IMG/VR virus record: IMGVR_UViG_3300043436_002386
Span: 1 to 48,052 of that record
Reading direction: 5' to 3' (one strand)
Length of the DNA: 48,052 nt
Origin: a virus
Shown one piece after another: positions 4,683 to 40,061 of the stretch. Position 1 is the first letter of the stretch. The number at the start of each line of letters is the position of its first letter. The notes below the pieces were generated by a model. That model saw only the letters and a list, made by a program, of their open reading frames with translations, was not told the origin of the DNA and searched no databases. The position numbers and the translations under genes are program-made.

Positions 4683-5178
4683 TTTAGAAGAATACAAAAC
4701 AGAAAACAACTTAAATTTGGTTATTGATATATTGTCAAAAAAACCTATTAATTTTATTGACACTGCTCCATTATTGCACATTAGTGATATTAAGTATGAA
4801 GAAGAAGCGTGTCGTTTTCGTGTATTAGAATTTTTTAATGTAGACGAACCAGTTTCGGACGAAGTTTTAGATTTGTTTATTGAAGAAAACAAAATAATAT
4901 CTAACATGAAAAATGTTGTTAGAGCAATGTATATGTCAATTGATTCACATACAGTTATTCCGGAACACACCGACGAAGAAGATCCTAATTTTAGAATTGT
5001 AAATGTTATACACTCAGGTTCGTCAAACATAGATGAGTGTGGCATGGTTATTAAAGATACAAAATACTCAATGATCAACGGGTTAGTAATTGGACTTGAT
5101 GCAAGTATTGAATTTCACAGAGTTTGGAATTATACAGATGATCCTTTAATTATCATGGTAGTTATTATAAAAAAATGA
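4675..5178 (+). CDS. Aspartyl/asparaginyl beta-hydroxylase-like 2OG oxygenase
   Basis: This 167-residue protein has VIPEHTDEEDPNFRIVNVI with HxD ligands. It also has ECGMVI and GLVIGLDASIEFHRVWN, where the distal His is followed by the WN pair typical of the aspartyl/asparaginyl beta-hydroxylase branch. The order of strands matches the C-terminal catalytic half of that family. It overlaps the preceding radical SAM gene by 8 nt and the next gene by 4 nt (ATGA). Small-molecule or peptide hydroxylation is likely; the substrate is not visible. Confidence 0.65.
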   Translation: MVNLEEYKTENNLNLVIDILSKKPINFIDTAPLLHISDIKYEEEACRFRVLEFFNVDEPVSDEVLDLFIEENKIISNMKNVVRAMYMSIDSHTVIPEHTDEEDPNFRIVNVIHSGSSNIDECGMVIKDTKYSMINGLVIGLDASIEFHRVWNYTDDPLIIMVVIIKK

Positions 5179-15000: not shown

Positions 15001-16410
15001 ATGTCAGTATCAGATAAAATTTCACCAACATTTTGTGCATTACCGTGGTTACATCTAAGTAGTCGTCCTGATGGTAAAATGCGTACTTGTTGTACTAGTA
15101 ATGCTAGCAGCGTACAAGATTCTGATTCTAATAAGAAAATTGGTGGTGGAGAAGTTGGAGTTGTAAAAAACGACGATGGTATTCCGGCTAATTTTAATCA
15201 TACAACACTAGCAGATGCGTGGAACAGTAGTTATATGCGTAACGTTCGTAATATGATGTTACGAGGCGAAAAGCCTGCAAGTTGTTTAAAATGTTACAAA
15301 GAAGAAGAAGCAGGGCATTTAAGCAAGCGCAACTGGGAAACTGACTACTGGAACCAGCGTTATGACATAGAACAATTAGTTGCAGAAACTCAAAAAGATG
15401 GATCTATACCTGTTAAAATAAGATATATAGACCTGCGAATGGGTAGCAAGTGCCAGCTTGCTTGTGTAATGTGCAGCCCTCACGACAGCAGCGGTTGGGT
15501 CAAAGAGTGGCAGCAAATGTTTCCGCAAATACAGAATGAAAAATTAAAAAACACAAGTCAGTGGGAAAACAAGGGACAAGTACATGGAGCTAGTTATAAC
15601 TGGCACAAAAACAATCCAAGATTTTGGAGTGAACTTTTTGAACAAGTTCCTAACATGTATCAACTTTATTTTGCAGGCGGCGAAAGTTTAATCATTAACG
15701 AACATTATGATCTTTTAGAAGAGTGTATTAAAAGAGGATATGCTAAAAATATTGAATTAAGATATAACAGCAACGCAGTTGAATGGCGAGAAGATTTGTT
15801 CGATCTTTGGGCAGAATTTAAACGTGTTAGATTTCACTATAGTATTGATGCCCACGGCGAACACAACGACTATATACGATATCCAAGCAAATGGGAACAT
15901 CAAGAAGAAGTCTTTTGGAAATTAGACAACACTGCACCTCAGGTGGAAGTAACAACTGCTACTACTATTATGGCTCTTAATATCGCTTATATTCCAGAAT
16001 TTGTACAATGGAAAGTACACCAGGGATTTAAAAAGATTAATAAATGGCCATTGGGCGCAGGCGGGATTAACATGCATTTTGCATATTGGCCTCCGCAATT
16101 GAATGTAAAGGTATTGCCTGCACATGTTAAGCAACATATAACTGAAAAATATACAAATGAATTTTATCCCTGGATAGAAGAAAATTGGGACAAGTTTACA
16201 GGTGTAAAAGAAAACAATATTTCGAAAGAACAGTTTTTAGAAAATCCGTACGGTGTTAAAAGATTCAAAGGGATTGTAAATTTTATGAACTCTGAGGATT
16301 GGAGTGCAAGACTTCCTGAAACTAAAGAATATCTAGAACTAATTAACAGACAACGGGGGTGGGACGATAAATTTTTAAAGGTTTTCCCTCTATTTAAGGA
16401 TATACTATGA
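15001..16410 (+). CDS. Radical SAM protein with N-terminal twitch-like cysteine domain
   Basis: The 469-residue protein belongs to the same family as the products at 3540, 16407 and 21522. N-terminal cysteines are C12 (FCALPW), C30-C31, and C95/C98 (ASCLKC), followed by the radical SAM motif C151-x3-C155-x2-C158 (CQLACVMC). FAGGESL takes the place of GGEP. A long insert between the twitch region and the core (about residues 105-140) is shared with the next gene's product. The start follows a 7-nt gap from the previous gene. The next gene overlaps it by 4 nt and is a diverged duplicate. Confidence 0.84.
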   Translation: MSVSDKISPTFCALPWLHLSSRPDGKMRTCCTSNASSVQDSDSNKKIGGGEVGVVKNDDGIPANFNHTTLADAWNSSYMRNVRNMMLRGEKPASCLKCYKEEEAGHLSKRNWETDYWNQRYDIEQLVAETQKDGSIPVKIRYIDLRMGSKCQLACVMCSPHDSSGWVKEWQQMFPQIQNEKLKNTSQWENKGQVHGASYNWHKNNPRFWSELFEQVPNMYQLYFAGGESLIINEHYDLLEECIKRGYAKNIELRYNSNAVEWREDLFDLWAEFKRVRFHYSIDAHGEHNDYIRYPSKWEHQEEVFWKLDNTAPQVEVTTATTIMALNIAYIPEFVQWKVHQGFKKINKWPLGAGGINMHFAYWPPQLNVKVLPAHVKQHITEKYTNEFYPWIEENWDKFTGVKENNISKEQFLENPYGVKRFKGIVNFMNSEDWSARLPETKEYLELINRQRGWDDKFLKVFPLFKDIL

Positions 16411-17780
16411 GTAAAGATAAAAAATGCACGTTCTGTCCGCTACCGTGGAACAGTATAAACTTACGCAACAACGGAGATCTGCGTATTTGTTGTAATACAA
16501 ACAGTTATAGTCCGCAGCGTGGCATTATGCGTAAGGAAGATGGCACCCCATACAATGCTGGACGCGACGACTGGAATGAAGCACGTAATGCATCGCTACT
16601 TAAAGATGTTCGTGCAACTATGCTAAAAGGAGAATGGCATCCAGAGTGCGAACGTTGCCGTCAAGAAGAAACCAATGGTATCAGATCACGACGTGAGTAT
16701 GAACATGACGACTGGAGTAGTTGGTATGGAAATTATATTGATTATAATAAGGCAGCAGAAATAACCGCCGAAGACGGTACACTAGATGTGTCTAAGCAAG
16801 ATATTAATTTTGTTGATATAAGATACGGAAACTTTTGCAATTTAAAGTGTCGAATGTGCGGACCTACTGATAGTCACCAATGGTATGATGACTTTGTTAA
16901 ATTGTACGAAACTACAGCTTACAAAGATACACATGATAAGATACAACTTGTAAAAAATGAAAAAGGTCGATGGTCAACTGACCAGTATGATTGGTTTCAA
17001 GGCAACAACATGTATTGGTCAAATTTTGAAAAATATGCAGTTAAAGCACATAAGCTATACATTGTAGGAGGTGAACCTCTTATTATTGACGAGCATCAGG
17101 AGAGCTTAGAACGTATAGTTGCTAGTGGTAATGCACCAAACATGCGATTAGAATACAATACAAACTTAACAATGCTGCCAGATAAGTTAGTATCGCTGTG
17201 GGAAAACTTTAAAGAAATTCGTATCGGAGTATCTATTGACGGAATTGGCGCAGTTTTTAATTATCAAAGAACACCTGCAAAGTTTGATCAGGTGTATAAA
17301 AACATGTTAAAAATCGATCAAAATCAAAAAATAAATCTTAGAGGATGGTTTGCGTTTACTGTAACACCGTTTAACGTGTTTCATTTTCCAGAGTTCATGA
17401 AATGGAAATTAACCGAAAGCCAATTAACTAGGTTTAATCCGTTAATTGATTCGAGACCGATTGTAAGTCATCATATGTGCCATAGTCCTAAATACTACAA
17501 CGTTAAAATGTTGCCTCCGGAGTTAAAACAAGAAGTTAAAATATATTACGAAGAATATATAGAATGGATCAATGGTACAGATGCTAGAGATAATGTTAAA
17601 AAGGACTTTGCAAAAGTATTAAACGGTGTTCTTAAATTTATGAATAGTGAAGATTATTCTAAAGATTGGCTAAAAACGTTTGTTGAAACAACTATTAAAT
17701 TAGACAAAATGCGAAATCAAAATATAATTGATATAGTGCCACAGTATAAGGAATTGTTTAATGAAAAAACAGATATCTAG
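16407..17780 (+). CDS. Radical SAM protein with N-terminal twitch-like cysteine domain (tandem paralog)
   Basis: The 457-residue protein is a tandem paralog of the preceding gene's product and starts in an ATGA overlap with it. N-terminal cysteines are C10 (FCPLPW), C28-C29, and C81/C84 (PECERC). The core motif is C144-x3-C148-x2-C151 (CNLKCRMC), followed by IVGGEPL. SIDGIGAVFNYQRTP is the substrate-side strand, corresponding to SIDAHGEHNDYIRYP in its neighbour. Two unequal copies kept side by side suggest either successive steps on one substrate or a heterodimer. Confidence 0.84.
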   Translation: MSKDKKCTFCPLPWNSINLRNNGDLRICCNTNSYSPQRGIMRKEDGTPYNAGRDDWNEARNASLLKDVRATMLKGEWHPECERCRQEETNGIRSRREYEHDDWSSWYGNYIDYNKAAEITAEDGTLDVSKQDINFVDIRYGNFCNLKCRMCGPTDSHQWYDDFVKLYETTAYKDTHDKIQLVKNEKGRWSTDQYDWFQGNNMYWSNFEKYAVKAHKLYIVGGEPLIIDEHQESLERIVASGNAPNMRLEYNTNLTMLPDKLVSLWENFKEIRIGVSIDGIGAVFNYQRTPAKFDQVYKNMLKIDQNQKINLRGWFAFTVTPFNVFHFPEFMKWKLTESQLTRFNPLIDSRPIVSHHMCHSPKYYNVKMLPPELKQEVKIYYEEYIEWINGTDARDNVKKDFAKVLNGVLKFMNSEDYSKDWLKTFVETTIKLDKMRNQNIIDIVPQYKELFNEKTDI

Positions 17781-21521: not shown

Positions 21522-22646
21522 ATGAATAAAACTTTTTGCATATTGCCGTGGACCCACGTATGTTCGACAACAGAAAATGATATAATACCATGTTGCAGAT
21601 TCTATACTAAAGATATACCGAGTAAAGTGGAATTATTAAATAACATTGGAATCGATGCTTTAAACACTGAAAGGTTTAAAAGTATTAGAAGAGACATGCT
21701 AGAAGGAATTAGGGTTCCTGAATGTAAAAAATGTTACAACGAAGAAGAAAATAATAAAATATCGTATAGACAAGAGTCTAACAGCTTGTATTTAAATAGT
21801 TCAGTAGAAACATTTACAGAAAACTTTAATGAAACATACTCAATAGAAATATCTTTAGACAACATTTGTAATCTACAGTGCAGAATGTGCAGTAGTCAAT
21901 TTAGTACCAAACTAATATTGCGAGATAAATTATTAAATTATAAAGTTTACAAAAAATTAGAAAGTGACTATTCATTTTTAGAGTTTTTAGACATATCAAA
22001 ACTAAAAAAAATAAAAATCTTAGGAGGAGAACCTGTTATGTCTCCGAACTTTGAAAAGTTTTTAGATTATATAATAGACCGATCAACTCCTGAAAATATA
22101 ATAGTACATCTAGTTACAAATGGCACTCACGAGATAACCCCTGTGTTGATTAAAAGATTAGAAAAATTTAAAACAGTACACTTAGCAGTTAGTCTAGATG
22201 CATATGATACTGCAAACGACTATCAGCGACACGGAAGTTCTTATATTACAATTTGGAATAATGCAAACACGTATAGAAAATTTTTAAAAAACGCAACTGT
22301 TGGATTTCATACAGTAATTTCTTTATATAATGCTAACGTAATATACAAAACTTTATCAAAATTTGAAGAAAACGACTTTGGATATTCAACAGATTTTGTT
22401 TACAATCTAGAAATGTCGATAGAACATGCACCGGATGATTACGCAGAATGGCTACTTGAAAAAAATAAAAGCCACAATACTGCTCAACAAATTATTGAAA
22501 ATATGTTAAGACGCAGAAAGTACGACAAAGAAAGATGGTCAGAATTTTTAAGTAATACTAAAAAACTTGATAACTATTATAAAATTAGCTTAAACGACTA
22601 CAACGTTGATTTATATAATTTTTTAAACAAACGATATGGATACTAA
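21522..22646 (+). CDS. Radical SAM protein with N-terminal twitch-like cysteine domain
   Basis: The 374-residue protein is the closest in length and layout to the product at 3540. It has C6 (FCILPW), C24-C25, and C68/C71 (ECKKC). The core is C116-x3-C120-x2-C123 (CNLQCRMC), followed by KILGGEPVMSPNF and VSLDAYDTANDYQRHG. It begins one base after the oxygenase stop and abuts the QueC-like gene. Its C-terminal 100 residues are helical and variable relative to the paralogs. Confidence 0.84.
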   Translation: MNKTFCILPWTHVCSTTENDIIPCCRFYTKDIPSKVELLNNIGIDALNTERFKSIRRDMLEGIRVPECKKCYNEEENNKISYRQESNSLYLNSSVETFTENFNETYSIEISLDNICNLQCRMCSSQFSTKLILRDKLLNYKVYKKLESDYSFLEFLDISKLKKIKILGGEPVMSPNFEKFLDYIIDRSTPENIIVHLVTNGTHEITPVLIKRLEKFKTVHLAVSLDAYDTANDYQRHGSSYITIWNNANTYRKFLKNATVGFHTVISLYNANVIYKTLSKFEENDFGYSTDFVYNLEMSIEHAPDDYAEWLLEKNKSHNTAQQIIENMLRRRKYDKERWSEFLSNTKKLDNYYKISLNDYNVDLYNFLNKRYGY

Positions 22647-29717: not shown

Positions 29718-30407
29718 ATGTCTAAAGAAGAGTTTGTATTTGAAATAGTAAATGAAACTAAGTATCTGTGTGATGAATTTAGGAAAGCATATCTATATCT
29801 GTACGGAATAGATGTTGAAACATTACATAAAAATCATAATGGATTTTTTGTTGACAATGTTAAAGAACCGGACGAACACAATATTGTTTTTGATATCGAA
29901 AGTCTCGATAAAACTCAATTTCCAAATATTAATGCATTTAAAAATACATACATTGGAAAAAATTTAGGAAATGTTGCGTTTTTTACCGAAACTGATACAA
30001 GAAAAGGATATGAGTCGTCGAGACTTTCTTCATTAGACATGCACAAACACGTTACATCATCTGTTATAATAAGTTTTCCTTTAAGTAATTGCAATTATAA
30101 AACAGAAGTCGGATTTCACAAGTTAACTCCTGAAGAGGAATTGCAAACACATTTATGTGAAATTGGAGGCGTTCATTTAACCAATAATCGTTGGTATAAA
30201 GATCCTGATTTTGTTTATAGTAGCATAGATGATACTCCATATCTTTTAAGAGCCGGTGCATGGCACAGTGTGAAAAATTATTCAAACAGCAGACGTATAG
30301 TAAGTGGATGGTATTTTAAACCCGATGTTATTTGGGAAGATCTTCTTGAATTGATTCGTGAGGAAAGAAAAATCTCCCAACTCGATGAACAAATTCCTGC
30401 CCGTTAA
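29718..30407 (+). CDS. 2OG oxygenase-fold protein with altered iron-binding motif
   Basis: The 229-residue protein parallels the product at 6380-6982. SVIISFPLSNCNYKTEVGF corresponds to NAINIPLVNCENSHTLFF there, and LLRAGAWHSVKNYS corresponds to ILRVNIPHGVYNP. The position of the HxD motif reads MHKHV, with His in place of the Asp ligand. It may be an inactive or non-2OG relative, or use a three-His site. The 3' end overlaps the convergent radical SAM gene by 80 nt. Confidence 0.5.
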   Translation: MSKEEFVFEIVNETKYLCDEFRKAYLYLYGIDVETLHKNHNGFFVDNVKEPDEHNIVFDIESLDKTQFPNINAFKNTYIGKNLGNVAFFTETDTRKGYESSRLSSLDMHKHVTSSVIISFPLSNCNYKTEVGFHKLTPEEELQTHLCEIGGVHLTNNRWYKDPDFVYSSIDDTPYLLRAGAWHSVKNYSNSRRIVSGWYFKPDVIWEDLLELIREERKISQLDEQIPAR

Positions 30408-32304
30408 TTTTTCCTCGTTGATATGTAAATGCACTTTGTTTGTTAAAAATATAGGTGTGTCCTCCGGCTGCAAAATATAATGCATCTTTGATTGTTGGCT
30501 CGTATGCAGGAGTTCCTAATTTATATACATTAACATCCCAAACACACAATTCCTTGATTAATTTATTTTCTCTAAAAAATCTAAACCAATTATATTTTGT
30601 TTCAAATGATTTTTTAATAGTTACATTTTTATCTATTAAAATTTCTTTATTAAAATGTAAAACATCATCGAGCTCTTCGACATTAATGTTTTGATTTTTA
30701 ATTAATGACTCTCTAATAATATCATAAATTTCATCTATATTAGAAATTAAAAAAATCCAACTATTTGTGTATCTTTGGAATGGTGCATTTTTATTGTAGT
30801 CGTAATAAAATTCTACATTATCAGATTCTCTTATATCTAAAAACGAATCTAAAAACTTTTGTTTTAAATGAGTATTGCATATTTCTTTAAAAATATTTTC
30901 AAAAAACTCAATAAATCCTATTTGATAGCGAGATTTTAAATATCTCATTATGTACATAGTAATTTTTCCAAACCATAATACTTGCACCATATCTCGTATA
31001 CCACGAATGTATTTCATTTCTTCAAACGACATTGTGTTAGTTGAATTTATCAAATATGTATATTCTACTTCGTCATCATATTTACTTGGACCTTGAGGAA
31101 ATTTTGACCATTTCATTCCATATTTGTCTGATTGATGATCTAACGACATTTCGCTATTTTCTAATAATGCTAATTTGTACATATGTATTTCAAATGGATT
31201 GAAATCTAACAATCTTTCAATTCCATCTAAGTAGCTTTTTTTAGTCTCTAGAGGTAATCCCATAATAATTTCATTATAAAATGGTAATCCCCTAGCACTA
31301 AAATTATCTGCTATCCACTGCATATTACTTAATGTTTTAATATCTTCTCTTTTTATAACAGCATTAGTAGGTGGATGTAATGTTTGAAGACTAAAACTTG
31401 CCCCTGCACGATTTAAATCATGTTTTTCCATGATTTCTGCTATTTCTAAGACTCGTTCTTTGTTGTTTTTGGCATATGTAACATTTGTACTATGTAAAAC
31501 TGCGTCAGGTCTTTTTGTACGTTCTACAATATATTTTGATATTTCAACATCTCGACTAAGTATTCCAAAATTGGCATCAGCAATCATCATTTCTTGTACG
31601 TTATCAACCATCCAGTCAATTTCTTGTTTAATACGCTCGATAGAAAATTTACGAAGCTTTTCTTCTAGTCCCCAATCACAAAATGTACAACTATACGGAC
31701 ACCCTCTATTTGTTTCTAATACACCTTGTATTTCAATTTTATCTTTATATTTTTTTATTATATCGTTGTATATTCCCATTGCACAAGGACTAGGAATATC
31801 TAATTCAGTCTTATGATTTAAATATCTCTTTGTTGTTTGTATTTTTAAATTACTATTTTCGTAGTAAGTAAAACAATCGTCTAGATGCTCATATCCTAAT
31901 TCTTTTCTTATTATATTTTCTAATGCTATTTCACCTTCACTCCAAACATAATAGTCATATTGTGGATTTTCTTTTGAAAATTTAATTAATCTGTCGACAT
32001 TTTGAGGTACGTCATTACCACCGACAATAATTTTACAATTTGGATATTTTTCTTTAATAGCTTTAGTTAATTTATTTGTTCTATTTCTGTTCCACATGTA
32101 CAAAGTACATAAAACAATATCAGGGTCTTTAATATCGTCAAGCAGTTCTAACACTGTATCTTCGGCTCTAATACTAAACCCTGAGAGTTCTAAATTGTTA
32201 AAAATATCCGGTTTTGTACTTAAATATGCCCAGAGTGTTCCTATCGACACTGGAATAGTGGTAATCATAGCACTGCATATTTGTACTCCGTGTATTCTCA
32301 ACAT
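30328..32304 (-). CDS. B12-binding-domain radical SAM protein
   Basis: The 658-residue protein has an N-terminal Rossmann-like domain (KIIVGGNDVPQNVDR; YVWSEGEIALENI) and then LETNRGCPYSCTFCDWG with C202-x3-C206-x2-C209. IADANFGILSRD and FYNEIIMGLPLET are nearly identical in form to segments of the protein at 6982. The cobalamin-binding His motif is not visible. GGAG lies upstream of the ATG. It is the last gene of the leftward accessory operon and overlaps the oxygenase-fold gene on the opposite strand by 80 nt. Methylation or rearrangement chemistry is typical of the class. Confidence 0.83.
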   Translation of the reverse strand: MLRIHGVQICSAMITTIPVSIGTLWAYLSTKPDIFNNLELSGFSIRAEDTVLELLDDIKDPDIVLCTLYMWNRNRTNKLTKAIKEKYPNCKIIVGGNDVPQNVDRLIKFSKENPQYDYYVWSEGEIALENIIRKELGYEHLDDCFTYYENSNLKIQTTKRYLNHKTELDIPSPCAMGIYNDIIKKYKDKIEIQGVLETNRGCPYSCTFCDWGLEEKLRKFSIERIKQEIDWMVDNVQEMMIADANFGILSRDVEISKYIVERTKRPDAVLHSTNVTYAKNNKERVLEIAEIMEKHDLNRAGASFSLQTLHPPTNAVIKREDIKTLSNMQWIADNFSARGLPFYNEIIMGLPLETKKSYLDGIERLLDFNPFEIHMYKLALLENSEMSLDHQSDKYGMKWSKFPQGPSKYDDEVEYTYLINSTNTMSFEEMKYIRGIRDMVQVLWFGKITMYIMRYLKSRYQIGFIEFFENIFKEICNTHLKQKFLDSFLDIRESDNVEFYYDYNKNAPFQRYTNSWIFLISNIDEIYDIIRESLIKNQNINVEELDDVLHFNKEILIDKNVTIKKSFETKYNWFRFFRENKLIKELCVWDVNVYKLGTPAYEPTIKDALYFAAGGHTYIFNKQSAFTYQRGKINGQEFVHRVGRFFFPHESIQEDLPK

Positions 32305-34061: not shown

Positions 34062-34819
34062 TTATAGACTCCTGCAAGACATATACGAGCTATGTCATCT
34101 TTTCTTCTAAATTTACTATAGTCACTATTTTTTGTAGTTGCTAACCAAACGCTATCGCTTGGTATAAAATTCATTTCTTCACATACTTTTCTTTGTTTAT
34201 TATACAATGACTTATAAACAAAGTCAATATCAAATTTACTTATGATACTTTCTGCTACTTGATGAGCAAAATAGTTATAATACTTTGCACTATGTATTAA
34301 TGCTTCTTGCTTTTCGTCCGGCGTTCTGCAAAAAAACCAACCTGTTCTAATATTACTAATACCAAAACTTTTACTTAAACTATAGAATACATACTGCACA
34401 TTATCGGGCAATGCAATTTTTTGAATTCTAGTACTTCCTACGTATGCTAGATCTAATGCAACCGGGCTATCGGTTTTTACAGTTTTAAAATTACCATCTA
34501 TAGCACTAGGTATACTTTGATATATTATAGTAGGGTGCATTCTTCCATTAATGTTATCTATCCATTGGTATTCACCCGGTTCTCTCCAAATATTATACTT
34601 GCTAGTTCCACTCCACCAGTTTAAACCTTCTGTAATTCCGTTCATAGGATACACATTAAAATTTGTCAAATCGACGATAGGTTTAAGCCAATCAATGATA
34701 TTTGTTTTATAGTGCATAACACTATCGTATGTAGGTGTTATACTACTAATGTGTACCTGAACTTCAGGTAAGATGTTAGTCCTTACTGCTAAACTTTGGT
34801 TTAATAAAAAATCTTTCAA
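34055..34819 (-). CDS. PLP-dependent aminotransferase-like protein (fold type I)
   Basis: The 254-residue product starts with TTG at 34819, with AGGA about 8 nt upstream, and overlaps the desaturase gene by 44 nt. It has YPMNGITEGLNWW, VALDLAYVGSTR with the PLP-pairing Asp, and FYSLSKSFGISNIRTGWFF with the SxSK Schiff-base lysine and following Arg. The ending DIARICLAGVY fits the C-terminal Arg segment. It is much shorter than usual class I aminotransferases (about 380-400), as is its relative at 19393. It may aminate a keto-sugar or keto acid. Confidence 0.7.
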   Translation of the reverse strand: MKDFLLNQSLAVRTNILPEVQVHISSITPTYDSVMHYKTNIIDWLKPIVDLTNFNVYPMNGITEGLNWWSGTSKYNIWREPGEYQWIDNINGRMHPTIIYQSIPSAIDGNFKTVKTDSPVALDLAYVGSTRIQKIALPDNVQYVFYSLSKSFGISNIRTGWFFCRTPDEKQEALIHSAKYYNYFAHQVAESIISKFDIDFVYKSLYNKQRKVCEEMNFIPSDSVWLATTKNSDYSKFRRKDDIARICLAGVYKC

Positions 34820-35423
34820 TAAGTATTCCTGCTATATCAAGTTTATGTAGTTTATACGATCTAGGATTGTCATGATGATACTTATGCCATCCTTCGCCGG
34901 GTGCTATAATATTTAAAATAGGTATGTCAGCCGGAGTACCAGATCTGTGTGCTAACCAATTGAGTAACCCAAATCCGACCCATGAAAGGATAAATGGCAT
35001 AAAAACAAAAATAATAAACAAATTTATACCTCCTAGCAGAGCTATAATACCGGCATACGTTAAATGTATATGTTTTCTGTAGCGATGAAAAAATACAATT
35101 CTTGGATTTTTTAACAAGTCTACAATATGCTTTTTTGGAATATATTCTACATGCCATCTGCTAGATAATACATTCCAAACTCCTTTATAAATAGGACTGT
35201 GAGGATCTTGTTCGGTATCACTTTTTACATGATGCATTCGGTGTACGCCTGCCCATGTTAATGCACTTCTTCCGCCGCAAATAAGCCCAAAAGATAGCAT
35301 GACTATTTCTAATGTCGACGAAGTTTCAAAACTACGATGTGTAAAATATCGATGATATCCTATAGAAATACCGATGAGAGCAGCAATATAATAAAATAAA
35401 TATCCGTATATAAATGTAATCAT
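34776..35423 (-). CDS. Fatty acid desaturase (acyl-CoA delta-9 type)
   Basis: The 215-residue membrane protein has the three histidine boxes of diiron desaturases: HRYFTH, HRMHH and HKYHH. Hydrophobic segments lie at the N-terminus (about 1-22), residues 38-52, and 120-160. The size is below the usual 280-330, with a short N-terminus, but all metal ligands are present. The enzyme introduces a double bond in an acyl chain at the membrane. It leads the leftward accessory operon from a promoter whose -10 box is 5 nt before the ATG, so it is probably translated without a leader. Confidence 0.85.
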   Translation of the reverse strand: MITFIYGYLFYYIAALIGISIGYHRYFTHRSFETSSTLEIVMLSFGLICGGRSALTWAGVHRMHHVKSDTEQDPHSPIYKGVWNVLSSRWHVEYIPKKHIVDLLKNPRIVFFHRYRKHIHLTYAGIIALLGGINLFIIFVFMPFILSWVGFGLLNWLAHRSGTPADIPILNIIAPGEGWHKYHHDNPRSYKLHKLDIAGILIERFFIKPKFSSKD

Positions 35424-35499: not shown

Positions 35500-37554
35500 T
35501 TAACCTCTATCAAATCTTCCAACGTATGTTACTGCAATATTTTTAAGATTTAATCCGTTAGATACGCGACTAACTCTTATTGGAAATGTAGTTTGTGGTA
35601 TTTTACTAATGTCTTGATATCCTACTCTAGCATCTCCACCTTCTAAACCGTTATAATCGGTCCAATTAGTACTAGTAGCTGTTGTTGATTCTACCCCATA
35701 ATAAAAGTCATCCGAAGACTGAACATCTAAACTCTGAAAATAATTTTTTACATCTTGATATGTCCATGCACGATTGAGACCCATTAAACAGGCAATAAAT
35801 CCTGCTGCTACTGGACATGCTGCACTAGTGCCACTAAACCCAGTATCCTCTGGTACTCCAGCACCGCTACCACTATTTGCTGTAAATCCTGGATAAGTGT
35901 CCGGATATATTCCTTCGGGTGTGTAACTTCTATTTGCTGCTAAGGTACCGTCTGCAGGCATATAAACATCAATGCCTTCGCCTCTATCACTGTATCCTAC
36001 TTTACGTTCGTCGCCATTTGTAAAATCGTCGTCTAACGCACCAACGTTTATAGTTTTGTATGTAACTTCGCCTGTACTAGGGTTAACAGTTTTTCCGCCC
36101 TGTTGCGGGAACCCTCTTCTATTAGTGGTGCCGTATACAGCTTGTCCAATATCGCTGTATGTTGTTTCTTCTAGTGTTTGTGTTGATGTTGCACTGATAT
36201 AATTGTCAAAGTCAGGGTGTCCCCAGTTAACTTGTTTTTGATTACTGTTACCTGCTGCAACTACAAATATTACACCGACATCGATTAGTTCGTCTAACGC
36301 AGTAGTTAGCGAACTTGGCTTAAATTCGCTTTTCCAACGTCCGCTGTCGCCCTGTGATCCCATATGACTTATAAATGCAGGCTCGCTGCTAGTACCTGGA
36401 TATTGAACAGGGTCGTCGTTTCGGAAATGATAGTATCCGTTTGTAGTGCCTTTACTAGATCTATATCCCCAACTATTAGAACTTACTGTAGGATTTTTAG
36501 TGCCATACTTTGGATTTATTGGTTTTGTTTGATGAAATATTTTTTGTAAATCAAATCCTGGTTCTATATCTGCGCCATTAGTGCCATAATGATTGAGGAC
36601 CCATTTGTTAGCATTGTATGCCCATCCTTGTGTTCTACCGTATGTAAGGGCCATACAAGGTGTACAATGCTCTCCTACACTGCTTTGTGCAGTGTTAGAC
36701 CCATTGCAATATGCACGAGTGTAAGAACTTGTAACAGTAACAGTACCGGCAGACGGATATAAATTGTTAAATGTGCCACTTCTATTTGCAGTTGATGCCC
36801 ACCAACTACGTGCAACACTTTCAACCGGAACAATTGTGCCATCCCAACGTGTAGTTAAACGTTCGGCTGAATTTGCATTAAAATAATCCGGATCCAAATA
36901 ATATGGTGCATCTAGCACAATATCTAATATATCACAAGTTCCGTTACCTGGTAAACGGTTGCCTCCTACATAATATGTAGGTTTGGCACCTGTACAATTG
37001 TTTTGAAATTCGGGGTGTCCTATCCATCCAGCACCGTCATCTGCAACAATAACATCAACATCTCTACCATCGCCAAATTGCTGAATGTTGCTAGTCACAA
37101 CTGAACTATCATCAAGACTGCCAGCAACCCACGGATCTAATTTCTGCATAGGTCGTAACAACTGATATCCTGTTCTGTTTATATCAGTGTTGTCTGGAGT
37201 TACAGGTAATGAATTAGTATTTTCAAAATCTCTGTATACCTTAACATTGCTTTGCCAACGTGTTAATAATTCTGCACTAGTTGCCTGAAGCTCGCTAGGA
37301 TTTGGTTTAAATTGCTCTGGATAGCTTGTAAAATCTATGTTAATCCATTTAACTCTTGGATCTGTTTTTAATGTTTCGGCTTCTTCGTCTGTAAGTAAAA
37401 ACGTACCTCTAGTAGGGCTATGAGGTTTCTCATCTACGCACATTACACATCTTGAAGGAATAGTATCTGTTCCTCCACTAGACATTAATTGATTATGTAT
37501 TTCGTACCATTGATCGGGTGTGTGCGTACCAACTTGGTAATACTTTTCACTCAT
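35500..37554 (-). CDS. Subtilisin-like (S8 family) serine protease, probably virion-associated
   Basis: The 684-residue protein has the S8 triad in order. VDVIVADDGAGWIGHPEF carries the Asp (172 or 173), GEHCTPCMALTYG has H296, VVAAGNSN gives the oxyanion Asn (436), and GFSGTSAACPVAAGF has S577. An approximately 160-residue N-terminal region may be a prodomain or structural attachment. No signal peptide is seen, so it acts in the infected cell or on the particle. It follows the tail-fibre gene by 22 nt with AAAGGA as the binding site, indicating late co-expression. It may process or sit within the fibre assembly. Confidence 0.85.
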   Translation of the reverse strand: MSEKYYQVGTHTPDQWYEIHNQLMSSGGTDTIPSRCVMCVDEKPHSPTRGTFLLTDEEAETLKTDPRVKWINIDFTSYPEQFKPNPSELQATSAELLTRWQSNVKVYRDFENTNSLPVTPDNTDINRTGYQLLRPMQKLDPWVAGSLDDSSVVTSNIQQFGDGRDVDVIVADDGAGWIGHPEFQNNCTGAKPTYYVGGNRLPGNGTCDILDIVLDAPYYLDPDYFNANSAERLTTRWDGTIVPVESVARSWWASTANRSGTFNNLYPSAGTVTVTSSYTRAYCNGSNTAQSSVGEHCTPCMALTYGRTQGWAYNANKWVLNHYGTNGADIEPGFDLQKIFHQTKPINPKYGTKNPTVSSNSWGYRSSKGTTNGYYHFRNDDPVQYPGTSSEPAFISHMGSQGDSGRWKSEFKPSSLTTALDELIDVGVIFVVAAGNSNQKQVNWGHPDFDNYISATSTQTLEETTYSDIGQAVYGTTNRRGFPQQGGKTVNPSTGEVTYKTINVGALDDDFTNGDERKVGYSDRGEGIDVYMPADGTLAANRSYTPEGIYPDTYPGFTANSGSGAGVPEDTGFSGTSAACPVAAGFIACLMGLNRAWTYQDVKNYFQSLDVQSSDDFYYGVESTTATSTNWTDYNGLEGGDARVGYQDISKIPQTTFPIRVSRVSNGLNLKNIAVTYVGRFDRG

Positions 37555-37576: not shown

Positions 37577-39094
37577 TTATGCAGAAGTACCGTCATCCAG
37601 GTTAATCCAGCCGCCGTTTTGATAACCTTGGAATCTGTTATCTGTTGTGTTGTAGATTAAATCGCCTGCAACTGGGCTAATTAGGTTTCTTTCTGTTGTT
37701 GTAAGTTGTGCTAATCTAAACGGACTAGTAGTTACTCTGACACGTTCGCCGGCTTGCAAGTCGATAACTGTTTCGCTTTCTAGTGTAGGAGCGCCACCAC
37801 CTGTACTAATAAAAGTATTAGCAGTTACTGAAGCAAATCTTACATCTGCGTCTTCTTCAAGAGATTGGTTTGGCATACTAAACCAAGAATCTGCTTGATA
37901 ATATTGTATTCTTTCAGCGTCTATATTATAGAACATTGCACCGTCGATTGAATTGCTGTCAGATCCGAATCCATCTCTGGAACTGGTGTCGCTTGGTCCT
38001 AATTTTAGGAATGTACTAAGTACAATTGCATTTTCGCTAAGTTCTTCTACAACTGCTCTGGTCCATCCTACAGTGTTATTATACATGTATAATCCACCAT
38101 CCGTGGTAACGGTATCATACATCATCTCGCCGCTAACAGGACTTGAAATCGCTGTATATGCTCTGTCATCGTCAAATTTTAAACTTCCGGTTAAAAGCAT
38201 CTCGCTTGCAGTTACACTACCGGTGAATACAGCATTGCCTTTCACATCTAGTTTTTCAGATGGAGTGTATGTTCCTAATCCTAAGTTACCTAAATTATTG
38301 AGCAACACAATTGTTGACTCAGGAAACACTGCGGTTTCGTCTACATGTAAATATATTCCACCACGACCACCGCCTATAACTGCCTCAAACTGTTCTCCGT
38401 TAATGTCATTTCGAGTAAAAAAGATTTGACCTCTGTCTGTGCCATTTCCGGATAAGTCGCCTGCTGAATTTAATTGAAAACGCATTGCTTTATTTGACAC
38501 AGTATTTTGTATTATAATGTCGTTATTTATAATTAAATCAGCAGATATTGTTCCACTAAGTGTATTAGTATCGCTGTTAACTAACATACTACTATCACTG
38601 CCGATAATATTAATTTGTTGGTTGGAACCGTCAAGTATAATAGTCGATGTATTTGGTGTATTAATCCACTCTGCACCATCCCAGGATATTACGTCACCTG
38701 GGTTTAATGTTCCTAGGTTAAAATCATTTAAATCACCTAGCGATATATTAGTAATTAAACTACCGTCGCCGATGAACGATCCATAAAATGCGCTGTTTAC
38801 GTTGTCGACAATTAACGTACTATCTACGCTAACAATACCACTGTCAATTGCCAAGGCTGATACAGTTCCGTTAATAGCAATGTTACCATTACCATTAATT
38901 TCGTATCCACTTAAATTTAGGTTTGATGTAAGAGCACTAGTAATGCCACCACCGCCGACAATTAAAGTACCGCCTACTGTTGATCCGTCACCAACATATA
39001 GTTCTCCGGTATCTGTTACGTATACAAGTTCACCTTCAGAAAATGTAATGCTTTGTCTTTGAAGGTCTGTACCGCGTCTTAATCGCAATGTCAT
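37577..39094 (-). CDS. Tail-fibre-like structural protein
   Basis: The 505-residue product begins TLRLRRGTDLQRQSITFSEG, then ELVYVTDTGELYVGDG, a head-domain pattern common to phage fibre and baseplate-attached proteins. Gly/Asn/Ser-rich beta repeats follow, including GNLGLGTYTPSEKLDVKG, typical of fibre shafts. Two segments (GEMMYDTVTTDGGLYMY; GDLIYNTTDNRFQGYQNGGW) recur as short beta modules near the end. INIIGSDSSMLVNS matches the fibre gene at 9231-10820. TAGGAGA lies upstream of the ATG within a hairpin, and a late promoter is in its loop. Confidence 0.78.
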   Translation of the reverse strand: MTLRLRRGTDLQRQSITFSEGELVYVTDTGELYVGDGSTVGGTLIVGGGGITSALTSNLNLSGYEINGNGNIAINGTVSALAIDSGIVSVDSTLIVDNVNSAFYGSFIGDGSLITNISLGDLNDFNLGTLNPGDVISWDGAEWINTPNTSTIILDGSNQQINIIGSDSSMLVNSDTNTLSGTISADLIINNDIIIQNTVSNKAMRFQLNSAGDLSGNGTDRGQIFFTRNDINGEQFEAVIGGGRGGIYLHVDETAVFPESTIVLLNNLGNLGLGTYTPSEKLDVKGNAVFTGSVTASEMLLTGSLKFDDDRAYTAISSPVSGEMMYDTVTTDGGLYMYNNTVGWTRAVVEELSENAIVLSTFLKLGPSDTSSRDGFGSDSNSIDGAMFYNIDAERIQYYQADSWFSMPNQSLEEDADVRFASVTANTFISTGGGAPTLESETVIDLQAGERVRVTTSPFRLAQLTTTERNLISPVAGDLIYNTTDNRFQGYQNGGWINLDDGTSA

Positions 39095-39099
39095 ATTGA

Positions 39100-39147
39100 A
39101 AATCTCCTAGCGTAATTGTTATATATATTTATCACGCTAGGAGATTT
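39100..39147 (-). promoter_or_regulatory. Perfect 14-bp hairpin enclosing a late promoter and sequestering the fibre RBS
   Basis: AAATCTCCTAGCGT (39100-39113) and ACGCTAGGAGATTT (39134-39147) are perfect inverted copies around a 20-nt loop. The loop holds GATAAATA on the minus strand (39133-39126). The TAGGAG binding site of the fibre gene is in the promoter-proximal arm. A transcript arriving from upstream would fold and hide the site. A transcript started at the late promoter would lack the 5' arm and stay open. The hairpin may also slow read-through. Confidence 0.8.
39126..39133 (-). promoter_or_regulatory. T4-type late promoter (GATAAATA) in hairpin loop
   Basis: GATAAATA differs from TATAAATA at the first base only. 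It lies 31 nt before the fibre ATG at 39094. The predicted start of transcription falls inside the loop. Confidence 0.7.
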
Positions 39148-39148
39148 A

Positions 39149-39463
39149 TTATTTGTTGGTTTTGAGAAATCTATAAACTCTGCGACTTAAATCGTGTTTA
39201 ATACGCTCTAAATCAAGTTTAAAGTTTATAGTTTCCATCGAATCTTCGTATTCTTCAAATAATTCGTCTAATGTGTCTTCTATATCCTCAAGTGTATGAG
39301 TTTTTCTACTTCCATTAATGTCAATATCCCATATAGTACCATTTTCAAATTTTATAATGATACTGTTGAGATATTCAACTGGAAAGAAGTCCATGTTCAC
39401 TTCGTCAAGTATTTCTTGCCAATCCTCGTCGGAAATGCGCTTTACTTTATGATTCTTCGACAA
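39149..39463 (-). CDS. Conserved-looking acidic phage protein, unknown function
   Basis: The reading frame is open upstream to a TTG at 39496, but that part lies inside the preceding gene. I favour TTG at 39463, giving about 104 residues; the start is uncertain. The protein is rich in acidic and hydrophobic residues (LEDIEDTLDELFEEYEDSMETI) with a basic C-terminal helix (LERIKHDLSRRVYRFL). No enzyme motif is visible. It is the last gene before the hairpin that precedes the fibre gene, and belongs to a four-gene run of small conserved phage genes. Confidence 0.55.
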   Translation of the reverse strand: MSKNHKVKRISDEDWQEILDEVNMDFFPVEYLNSIIIKFENGTIWDIDINGSRKTHTLEDIEDTLDELFEEYEDSMETINFKLDLERIKHDLSRRVYRFLKTNK

Positions 39464-40061
39464 TAGTAGACTTAGCTTTCTTTTTTGTCGGAACAAGTTC
39501 GTCTGCCTGCTCTCTTAGACGTTTGGCTTCTTTAAATAAAGAGTCTGCTTGACTTCTCAAAGAAGCAGCCAAGTCTTCGTCGGTTAAGACACTATTTGTA
39601 GGTGCGCTATTTGTAACCGCAGTTGTTTCTTTAACAGGAGATGTATTACTTGTTTCCTGTTGCGGTGTATTAGGTCCCTTTAACGAAAGATCCTCTAACG
39701 AAACTCCTCGCTGATTAGCAATTATTTGATTCAATTCATCTAATCCAACAGTTGTATGTAGATCTGGAATCATCTCAATTTCGTTCGTTGCAATTTTAAA
39801 TAGCTTACCAGTTCCGTGAAAACCAGCAAGCATGTTGCGTCCGTCGACTAGATATGTTCGTGCCATTGCTTCTGCAAGCTCATATGCCGATTGTCCAGCT
39901 TCGCTTTCAACGCATCTTATCAAACTAGCGTGTTCGTCAGCATTCAACGAATCGGTAAAAATTACCAACGCATTAAATGGGTCATTTGGCAAAGTTCTAT
40001 AAGCAACTATTGCTCTTCTTTTGCTCTTTTTTAAACGTCCTACGTGTTTAAGCGCCGGCAT
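39447..40061 (-). CDS. Phage protein of unknown function
   Basis: I chose ATG 40061 (GGGAGA about 8 nt upstream) rather than the longer frame to 40127, which overlaps the previous gene. The 204-residue protein starts with a basic segment (KHVGRLKKSKRRAIVAYRTLP) and has a globular middle with MIPDLHTTVGLDELNQII. It ends in a Thr/Ser/Asn-rich linker plus a helical, Lys-rich tail (SLFKEAKRLREQADEL). I do not recognise a catalytic motif. It overlaps the upstream small gene by 14 nt. A nucleic-acid or assembly role is possible. Confidence 0.6.
   Translation of the reverse strand: MPALKHVGRLKKSKRRAIVAYRTLPNDPFNALVIFTDSLNADEHASLIRCVESEAGQSAYELAEAMARTYLVDGRNMLAGFHGTGKLFKIATNEIEMIPDLHTTVGLDELNQIIANQRGVSLEDLSLKGPNTPQQETSNTSPVKETTAVTNSAPTNSVLTDEDLAASLRSQADSLFKEAKRLREQADELVPTKKKAKSTIVEES

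Follow-up and report, generated by a model that had tools for sequence, protein, structure and literature searches.

A late promoter within a hairpin that probably acts as a timing switch on a fibre-type gene of uncultivated T4-like phages

In the virus record IMGVR_UViG_3300043436_002386, whose 48,052-nt stretch analysed here is called the window, we have identified a perfect hairpin that surrounds a T4-type late promoter motif and contains the Shine-Dalgarno sequence of a fibre-type gene. This element is likely to act in cis as a timing switch like those of T4 gene e and I-TevI, guarding translation of the fibre gene.

The inverted repeat lies on the minus strand. Its two 14-bp arms are separated by 20 nt and pair with zero mismatches, so the perfect stem around GATAAATA described by the first-pass annotation is indeed present. 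The 5′ arm, AAATCTCCTAGCGT (39147-39134), which would occur in read-through RNA only, contains CTCCTA, the partner of the Shine-Dalgarno sequence; the 3′ arm, ACGCTAGGAGATTT (39113-39100), carries the Shine-Dalgarno sequence TAGGAG itself (39109-39104), with the start codon 9 nt further on. Along the minus strand, the stop codon of the upstream gene is followed by a single base, the 5′ arm, GATAAATA, 12 bases, the 3′ arm and the fibre start codon at 39094. TAGGAG had been rightly assigned to an arm of the hairpin, but the wording "promoter-proximal arm" was ambiguous, as the arm in question is the one downstream of the promoter, adjoining the start codon. The upstream gene (39149-39430, minus strand) ends with a TAA (39151-39149) that abuts the hairpin; 39430 is its assumed start in an open reading frame that opens at 39496, and its protein has no PHROG match.

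Of the 24 inverted repeats in the 48-kb window with arms at most 60 nt apart, the repeat at 39147-39100 tops the list. The 76-nt hairpin RNA has a folding energy of -23.6 kcal/mol, compared with -5.8 ± 2.3 kcal/mol for 200 dinucleotide shuffles, none of which equals it (z -7.9). RNAfold predicts a stem of 17 bp, in which GAT of GATAAATA also pairs (with one G-U), and the promoter is therefore part stem and part loop. The promoter is enclosed between the 14-bp arms, as had been claimed, but its first three bases join the predicted stem. No Rfam family matched the hairpin at its gathering score: the best hit scored 18.5 bits (E 0.77), where the threshold is 80.

The first reading of the sequence had proposed that read-through RNA folds and that late RNA cannot, and computed predictions for both transcript forms gave this contrast. 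For two read-through forms of the window leader, the predicted cost of opening the RNA from TAGGAG up to the start codon is 18.6 and 18.2 kcal/mol (range 16-19), as against 1.8 kcal/mol in each of five late starts (about 1.5-2). The Shine-Dalgarno sequence is wholly paired in the predicted read-through fold, and none of 60 versions with a shuffled 5′ flank attained the read-through value. T4 genes treated as controls also became cheaper to open from the read-through to the late form: e from 10.9 to 0.5-2.1 kcal/mol, I-TevI from 11.2 to 0.9 kcal/mol and gene 49 from 6.2 to 0.7 kcal/mol, with a smaller drop for I-TevII, from 11.0 to 5.8 kcal/mol. The two hallmarks of the T4-type element, a Shine-Dalgarno sequence and/or start codon within a helix of the long transcript and a late transcript that lacks the 5′ strand of that helix, are both found in the predicted folds, the predicted +1 at 39120 lying beyond the arm at 39147-39134.

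When late-motif sites were ranked by their read-through/late difference, the fibre site had the largest value among 30 sites in pieces of a 330-kb relative, among 26 in pieces of a 251-kb relative and among 4 in the window. In the 251-kb relative a second motif also leads to the fibre gene, and the runner-up gene in the 330-kb relative reaches 10.0 kcal/mol. A gene in the 330-kb relative whose product starts MARNIEASRYN, behind a minus-strand promoter at 5030 (L236), has a read-through/late difference of 10 kcal/mol.

GATAAATA occupies 39133-39126 on the minus strand. According to PMC1524935, the T4 late promoter TATAAATA spans -13 to -6, and the T at -13 is poorly conserved in other T4-like phages. 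Application of this rule to GATAAATA puts the predicted late start at 39120 (minus strand), within the hairpin. Late motifs are not enriched in the 48-kb window, where DATAAATA was observed 16 times against 27 expected. That GATAAATA is a promoter is suggested by the relatives, in which xATAAATA is kept in place before the fibre gene and the motif favours one strand. Of the nine larger relatives, eight show a strand bias of GATAAATA (26:1, 4:30, 20:3, 3:17, 17:3, 9:2, 8:2 and 8:1) and the ninth does not (7:11). A gp55-like sigma factor (phrog_234) is encoded in 9/9 of these larger relatives; the 48-kb window, a fragment, has no phrog_234 match. The gp45 profile gave zero matches across ten records and is hence uninformative.

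Neither a nucleotide search of the leader region against known phages nor a search with the fibre N-terminus of the window (at E 1e-3) found a match, and a consensus-like fibre N-terminus retrieved 82 records, every one below 60% identity; the phages in which the element was identified are all uncultivated. IMG/VR protein searches yielded at least 166 loci including the window; one was dropped because of a short upstream stretch, and the rest represent 94 distinct leaders. Among the matches listed, 14 of the 94 are without a promoter motif or Shine-Dalgarno sequence by rule, and 80 carry xATAAATA together with a Shine-Dalgarno sequence. A strong switch, for which we required the read-through and late forms to differ by 5 kcal/mol or more, was predicted in 18 of these 80, again among the matches listed. 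The remaining 62 fall below 5 kcal/mol, and as 54 of them lie behind the same upstream gene family, the gene arrangement does not need the switch. Position -13 is G in 13 of the 18 strong-switch leaders and in 15 of the 62 others listed (Fisher p 0.0004, with relatedness ignored). The 18 include dissimilar leaders, namely the GTGATAAATA group together with the window, three leaders with TATAAATA (L038, L203 and L008), L014 with a short TCCTGATA stem, and L081 with AATAAATA. Two leaders with AATAAATA, L054 and L081, have long hairpins that are unlike in their letters and similar in their layout before GGAG, with switches of 0.4 and 5.6 kcal/mol, respectively.

Compensatory changes in the two arms, the covariation that had been put forward as a check, were found in the uncultivated relatives. 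They were assessed by arm swapping and by per-leader folds, because MAFFT misaligned the 5′ arms, stem length differing by one base. In the swaps, each 5′ arm was paired with its own 3′ part or with that of another phage, over 20,000 permutations. For the 17 GTGATAAATA leaders from the protein search, among the matches listed, own pairs averaged -21.4 kcal/mol and swapped pairs -17.1 kcal/mol (0/20,000), and a 15-leader subset, without L088 and without L003, a near-duplicate of the window, gave -22.1 and -17.8 kcal/mol (0/20,000). The 28 GATAAATA leaders, unselected by fold and again among the matches listed, behaved alike, with -16.7 kcal/mol for own and -11.3 kcal/mol for swapped arms (0/20,000). 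Leaders with TATAAATA and CATAAATA gave a faint signal, matched by 271 and 508 permutations of 20,000, respectively. When 16 leaders (without L088) were folded one by one, the stem position 3 bases before the promoter occurred as C-G, T-A, A-T and G-C, and it is C-G in the window and in L003; offsets beyond -3 mix two registers in these folds. In L022, AGGAG/CTCCT has become AGGGG/CCCCT, the Shine-Dalgarno sequence and its partner having changed together. At least five of the six Shine-Dalgarno bases are paired in 24 of 28 distinct elements, whereas shuffling the flanks gave this in 233 of 1400 cases, the elements being drawn from protein and pattern searches and thus partly conditioned on the 3′ arm. 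The cells opposite the Shine-Dalgarno sequence in the 28 elements comprise 141 Watson-Crick, 10 G-U and 17 unpaired; pairing is weak in four of the 28 GTGATAAATA elements (L082, L034, L024 and L088).

A pattern that combined the promoter with the inner stem and TAGGAG matched 56 stretches in IMG/VR, with 23 distinct leaders. All 56 directly precede an ORF starting M-x-[L/F]-[R/Q/K]-LRRG, their fibre type being judged by this N-terminal motif and not by an HMM for each ORF. A single control, in which the promoter letters were rearranged and the stem letters kept, gave zero matches, and a pattern with a different stem and TATAAATA had no match. A looser scan, which required complementary CTCCTA and TAGGAG, found at least 80 loci; of the 80 listed, 59 have a correctly placed ORF and 12 are of this fibre type. 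Hairpin leaders of this general kind thus occur beyond this fibre. On other viral contigs, six such leaders (L273, L326, L271, L290, L285 and L294) have xATAAATA within a CTCCTA/TAGGAG repeat, although the stem of L271 is absent from its minimum-energy fold. Looser-scan leaders precede ORFs that match homing endonuclease, tail sheath, head-tail adaptor and head maturation protease families, as matched by N-termini of 50 residues only.

Translational coupling is an unlikely alternative. Here the hairpin would stop independent initiation, and a ribosome ending the upstream gene would open the outer stem and free the Shine-Dalgarno sequence, so that fibre output would track the upstream gene. The positions suit such a mechanism: a single base separates the upstream TAA from the stem, the gap from stop to ATG is 51-65 nt in the 17 GTGATAAATA leaders among the matches listed, with the stop near the stem foot, and 69 of the 80 distinct leaders listed have a member of one and the same gene family upstream of the fibre (15/18 strong-switch, 54/62 others). 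Nevertheless, coupling leaves a late promoter inside the hairpin unexplained, and the control in which the promoter was scrambled and the stem kept had no match; moreover, relatives without a strong hairpin have similar stop-to-ATG gaps, and the inner stem would probably remain closed, judging from the size of a ribosome footprint.

The same dyad could instead be read in DNA, as an operator: a dimeric protein bound to it would control the late promoter that it surrounds, and the RNA fold would be incidental. T4 offers a precedent in I-TevI, which binds an operator overlapping its own late promoter (PMC2988022), but we regard this reading as very improbable here. The arm letters are not fixed and vary in matched pairs, the Shine-Dalgarno sequence is itself part of the arms, and 10 of the 27 non-Watson-Crick cells opposite it are G-U; the matched changes and the G-U pairs argue for RNA rather than for a DNA operator. 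A stable intergenic stem might also terminate transcription or direct RNA processing between the upstream and fibre genes, yet this is scarcely credible here. After the stem the minus strand continues with TCAATATG, without the T run of an intrinsic terminator, whereas the plus strand, with 5 T of 8 in ATTATTTG, is opposite to the strand of both the fibre and the upstream gene, and none of the Rfam hits comes close to its gathering score. One of our terminator scans took loops of 3-8 only, which places the hairpin at 39147-39100 outside its reach, and it thus supplies no evidence there.

The 330-kb relative keeps the order SAM synthetase, exonuclease, 161-aa gene, MSRPKP gene, 204-aa gene, MoxR, VWA, four small genes, hairpin and fibre; the order is the same in the 251-kb relative, but there the SAM synthetase and the 204-aa gene are unmatched. 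After the MoxR-type gene, a terminator-like hairpin with a T run (42017-41978, minus strand) is conserved in place in both relatives (-31.0, -32.5 and -32.9 kcal/mol in the three genomes). Right after it, upstream of the VWA/metallopeptidase gene, lies a sigma-70-like promoter whose second hexamer is preceded by TG (41969-41941, minus strand). In each of the three genomes this promoter scores 10/12 matches, a value equalled by 11 (window), 4 and 5 of 300 shuffles, and no xATAAATA is found there. Sigma-70-like matches in the region overall are not enriched (44 against 38.7 ± 6.9). The VWA promoter, about 2.8 kb and five genes upstream, is the most likely start of the unit that is read through into the fibre leader.

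Downstream of the VWA promoter and before the hairpin, two weak terminator-like sites occur in the window (41712 and 39568), and both relatives have a stronger-looking terminator-like stem within the 94-aa gene, so some read-through may be lost. A conserved GGAGG...CCTCC stem in the coding sequence of the 94-aa gene (window 40595-40560, minus strand; L233 and L256) is possibly an attenuator. MoxR has a sigma-70-like promoter in the window (6/300 shuffles as good) and a weaker one in the 330-kb relative (49/300); the 251-kb relative has only TTGACG, 17 bases and TATAAA, which falls outside the scan rule. Upstream of the MSRPKP gene (44479-44198, minus strand), a small gene named here after the start of its product, a late-type motif at 44511-44504 is placed alike in both larger relatives. 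As this motif lies upstream of the terminator at 42017-41978, mRNA from it probably ends before the fibre gene.

Under the timing switch that we favour, a polymerase started upstream, most likely at the VWA sigma-70-like promoter, would transcribe both arms, and the resulting RNA is computed to fold with the fibre Shine-Dalgarno sequence buried, which should silence it. Late in infection, a gp55-type sigma factor would initiate at GATAAATA inside the hairpin. The late mRNA, starting at about 39120 without the 5′ arm, is computed to form no such hairpin and would be translated. The fibre's own late promoter, rather than mRNA initiated upstream, would thus be the source of its synthesis. Prevention of early fibre synthesis by the hairpin, as proposed in the first-pass annotation, is plausible because a conserved sigma-70-like promoter starts a unit five genes upstream, after a conserved terminator.

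The fibre gene encodes 505 aa (37577-39094, minus strand) and has an N-terminal Mtd_N domain (PF18454, E 8.3e-10). On the strength of this domain, the earlier label "fibre" is fair in the sense of a fibre or receptor-binding type; PHROGs gave one weak match, near the C-terminus. The leader and fibre N-terminus of L004-L006 are nearly identical to those of the window (95% in L004), whereas over the fibre as a whole the best segment is 70% identical; from the sequences, the C-terminal part of the fibre looks as if it were exchanged. A subtilase-like gene (35500-37554, minus strand) begins 22 nt past the fibre gene and may share its late mRNA. Elsewhere in the window, four proteins match radical SAM families (15001-16410, 16407-17780 and 21522-22646, plus strand; 30328-32304, minus strand), and a fatty acid desaturase match (34776-35423) lies near radical SAM genes.

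Hairpins that hide a ribosome-binding site and are bypassed by late transcription are known from T4. For T4 e, long early transcripts are described as hiding the ribosome site and late transcripts as being without the 5′ strand (PMC3014915), with which our recomputed folds agree; the parallel with lysozyme drawn at first reading was therefore right. Structures of this kind are also named for T4 soc (PMC3014915, PMC2988022) and 49 (PMC3014915), and I-TevI, I-TevII, I-TevIII and related homing endonucleases are reported to have a late promoter at such a hairpin within an early/middle unit (PMC2988022). The window resembles e in that read-through RNA would hide the Shine-Dalgarno sequence and late RNA would lack the 5′ strand. 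In e, however, the stem is shorter and the late promoter itself is within the 5′ arm, whereas the window has a separate CTCCTA arm upstream of the promoter, only the first bases of which join the stem; furthermore, e is a lysis gene and the window gene a fibre. The I-TevI, I-TevII and I-TevIII leaders (the first two recomputed here) share with the window a late promoter at a hairpin over the ribosome-binding site, but these genes are mobile endonucleases, and family scans of some ORFs saw no mobile element in the window. T4 soc and 49 belong to the same class by the cited accounts and are different genes; 49 was recomputed. By anatomy and comparison, the window element can be provisionally grouped with these T4-type bypassed hairpins. 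The mechanism is known from T4; the gene class, fibre, and the phage group are new, and among the matches listed, from mainly open-licence literature, there was no report of such a switch for a fibre gene or for this phage group.

The cited accounts place such switches in T4 at lysozyme, soc, 49, a few others and the homing endonucleases, and the same logic appears here to guard a fibre-type gene of large uncultivated phages. A single promoter position would set both the timing of transcription and the translatability of the mRNA, and the matched changes across many leaders are comparative evidence beyond the reach of a single genome. A wider proposal, to which we give somewhat less than even credence, is that the promoter within a hairpin is a common and repeatedly evolved timing device for virion genes of uncultivated T4-like phages, chiefly the Mtd_N fibre, and that the promoter is itself shaped by RNA pairing, its unusual G at -13 being favoured since it is paired in the stem. 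The sequence signature is offered as a means of predicting late genes in uncultivated phages.
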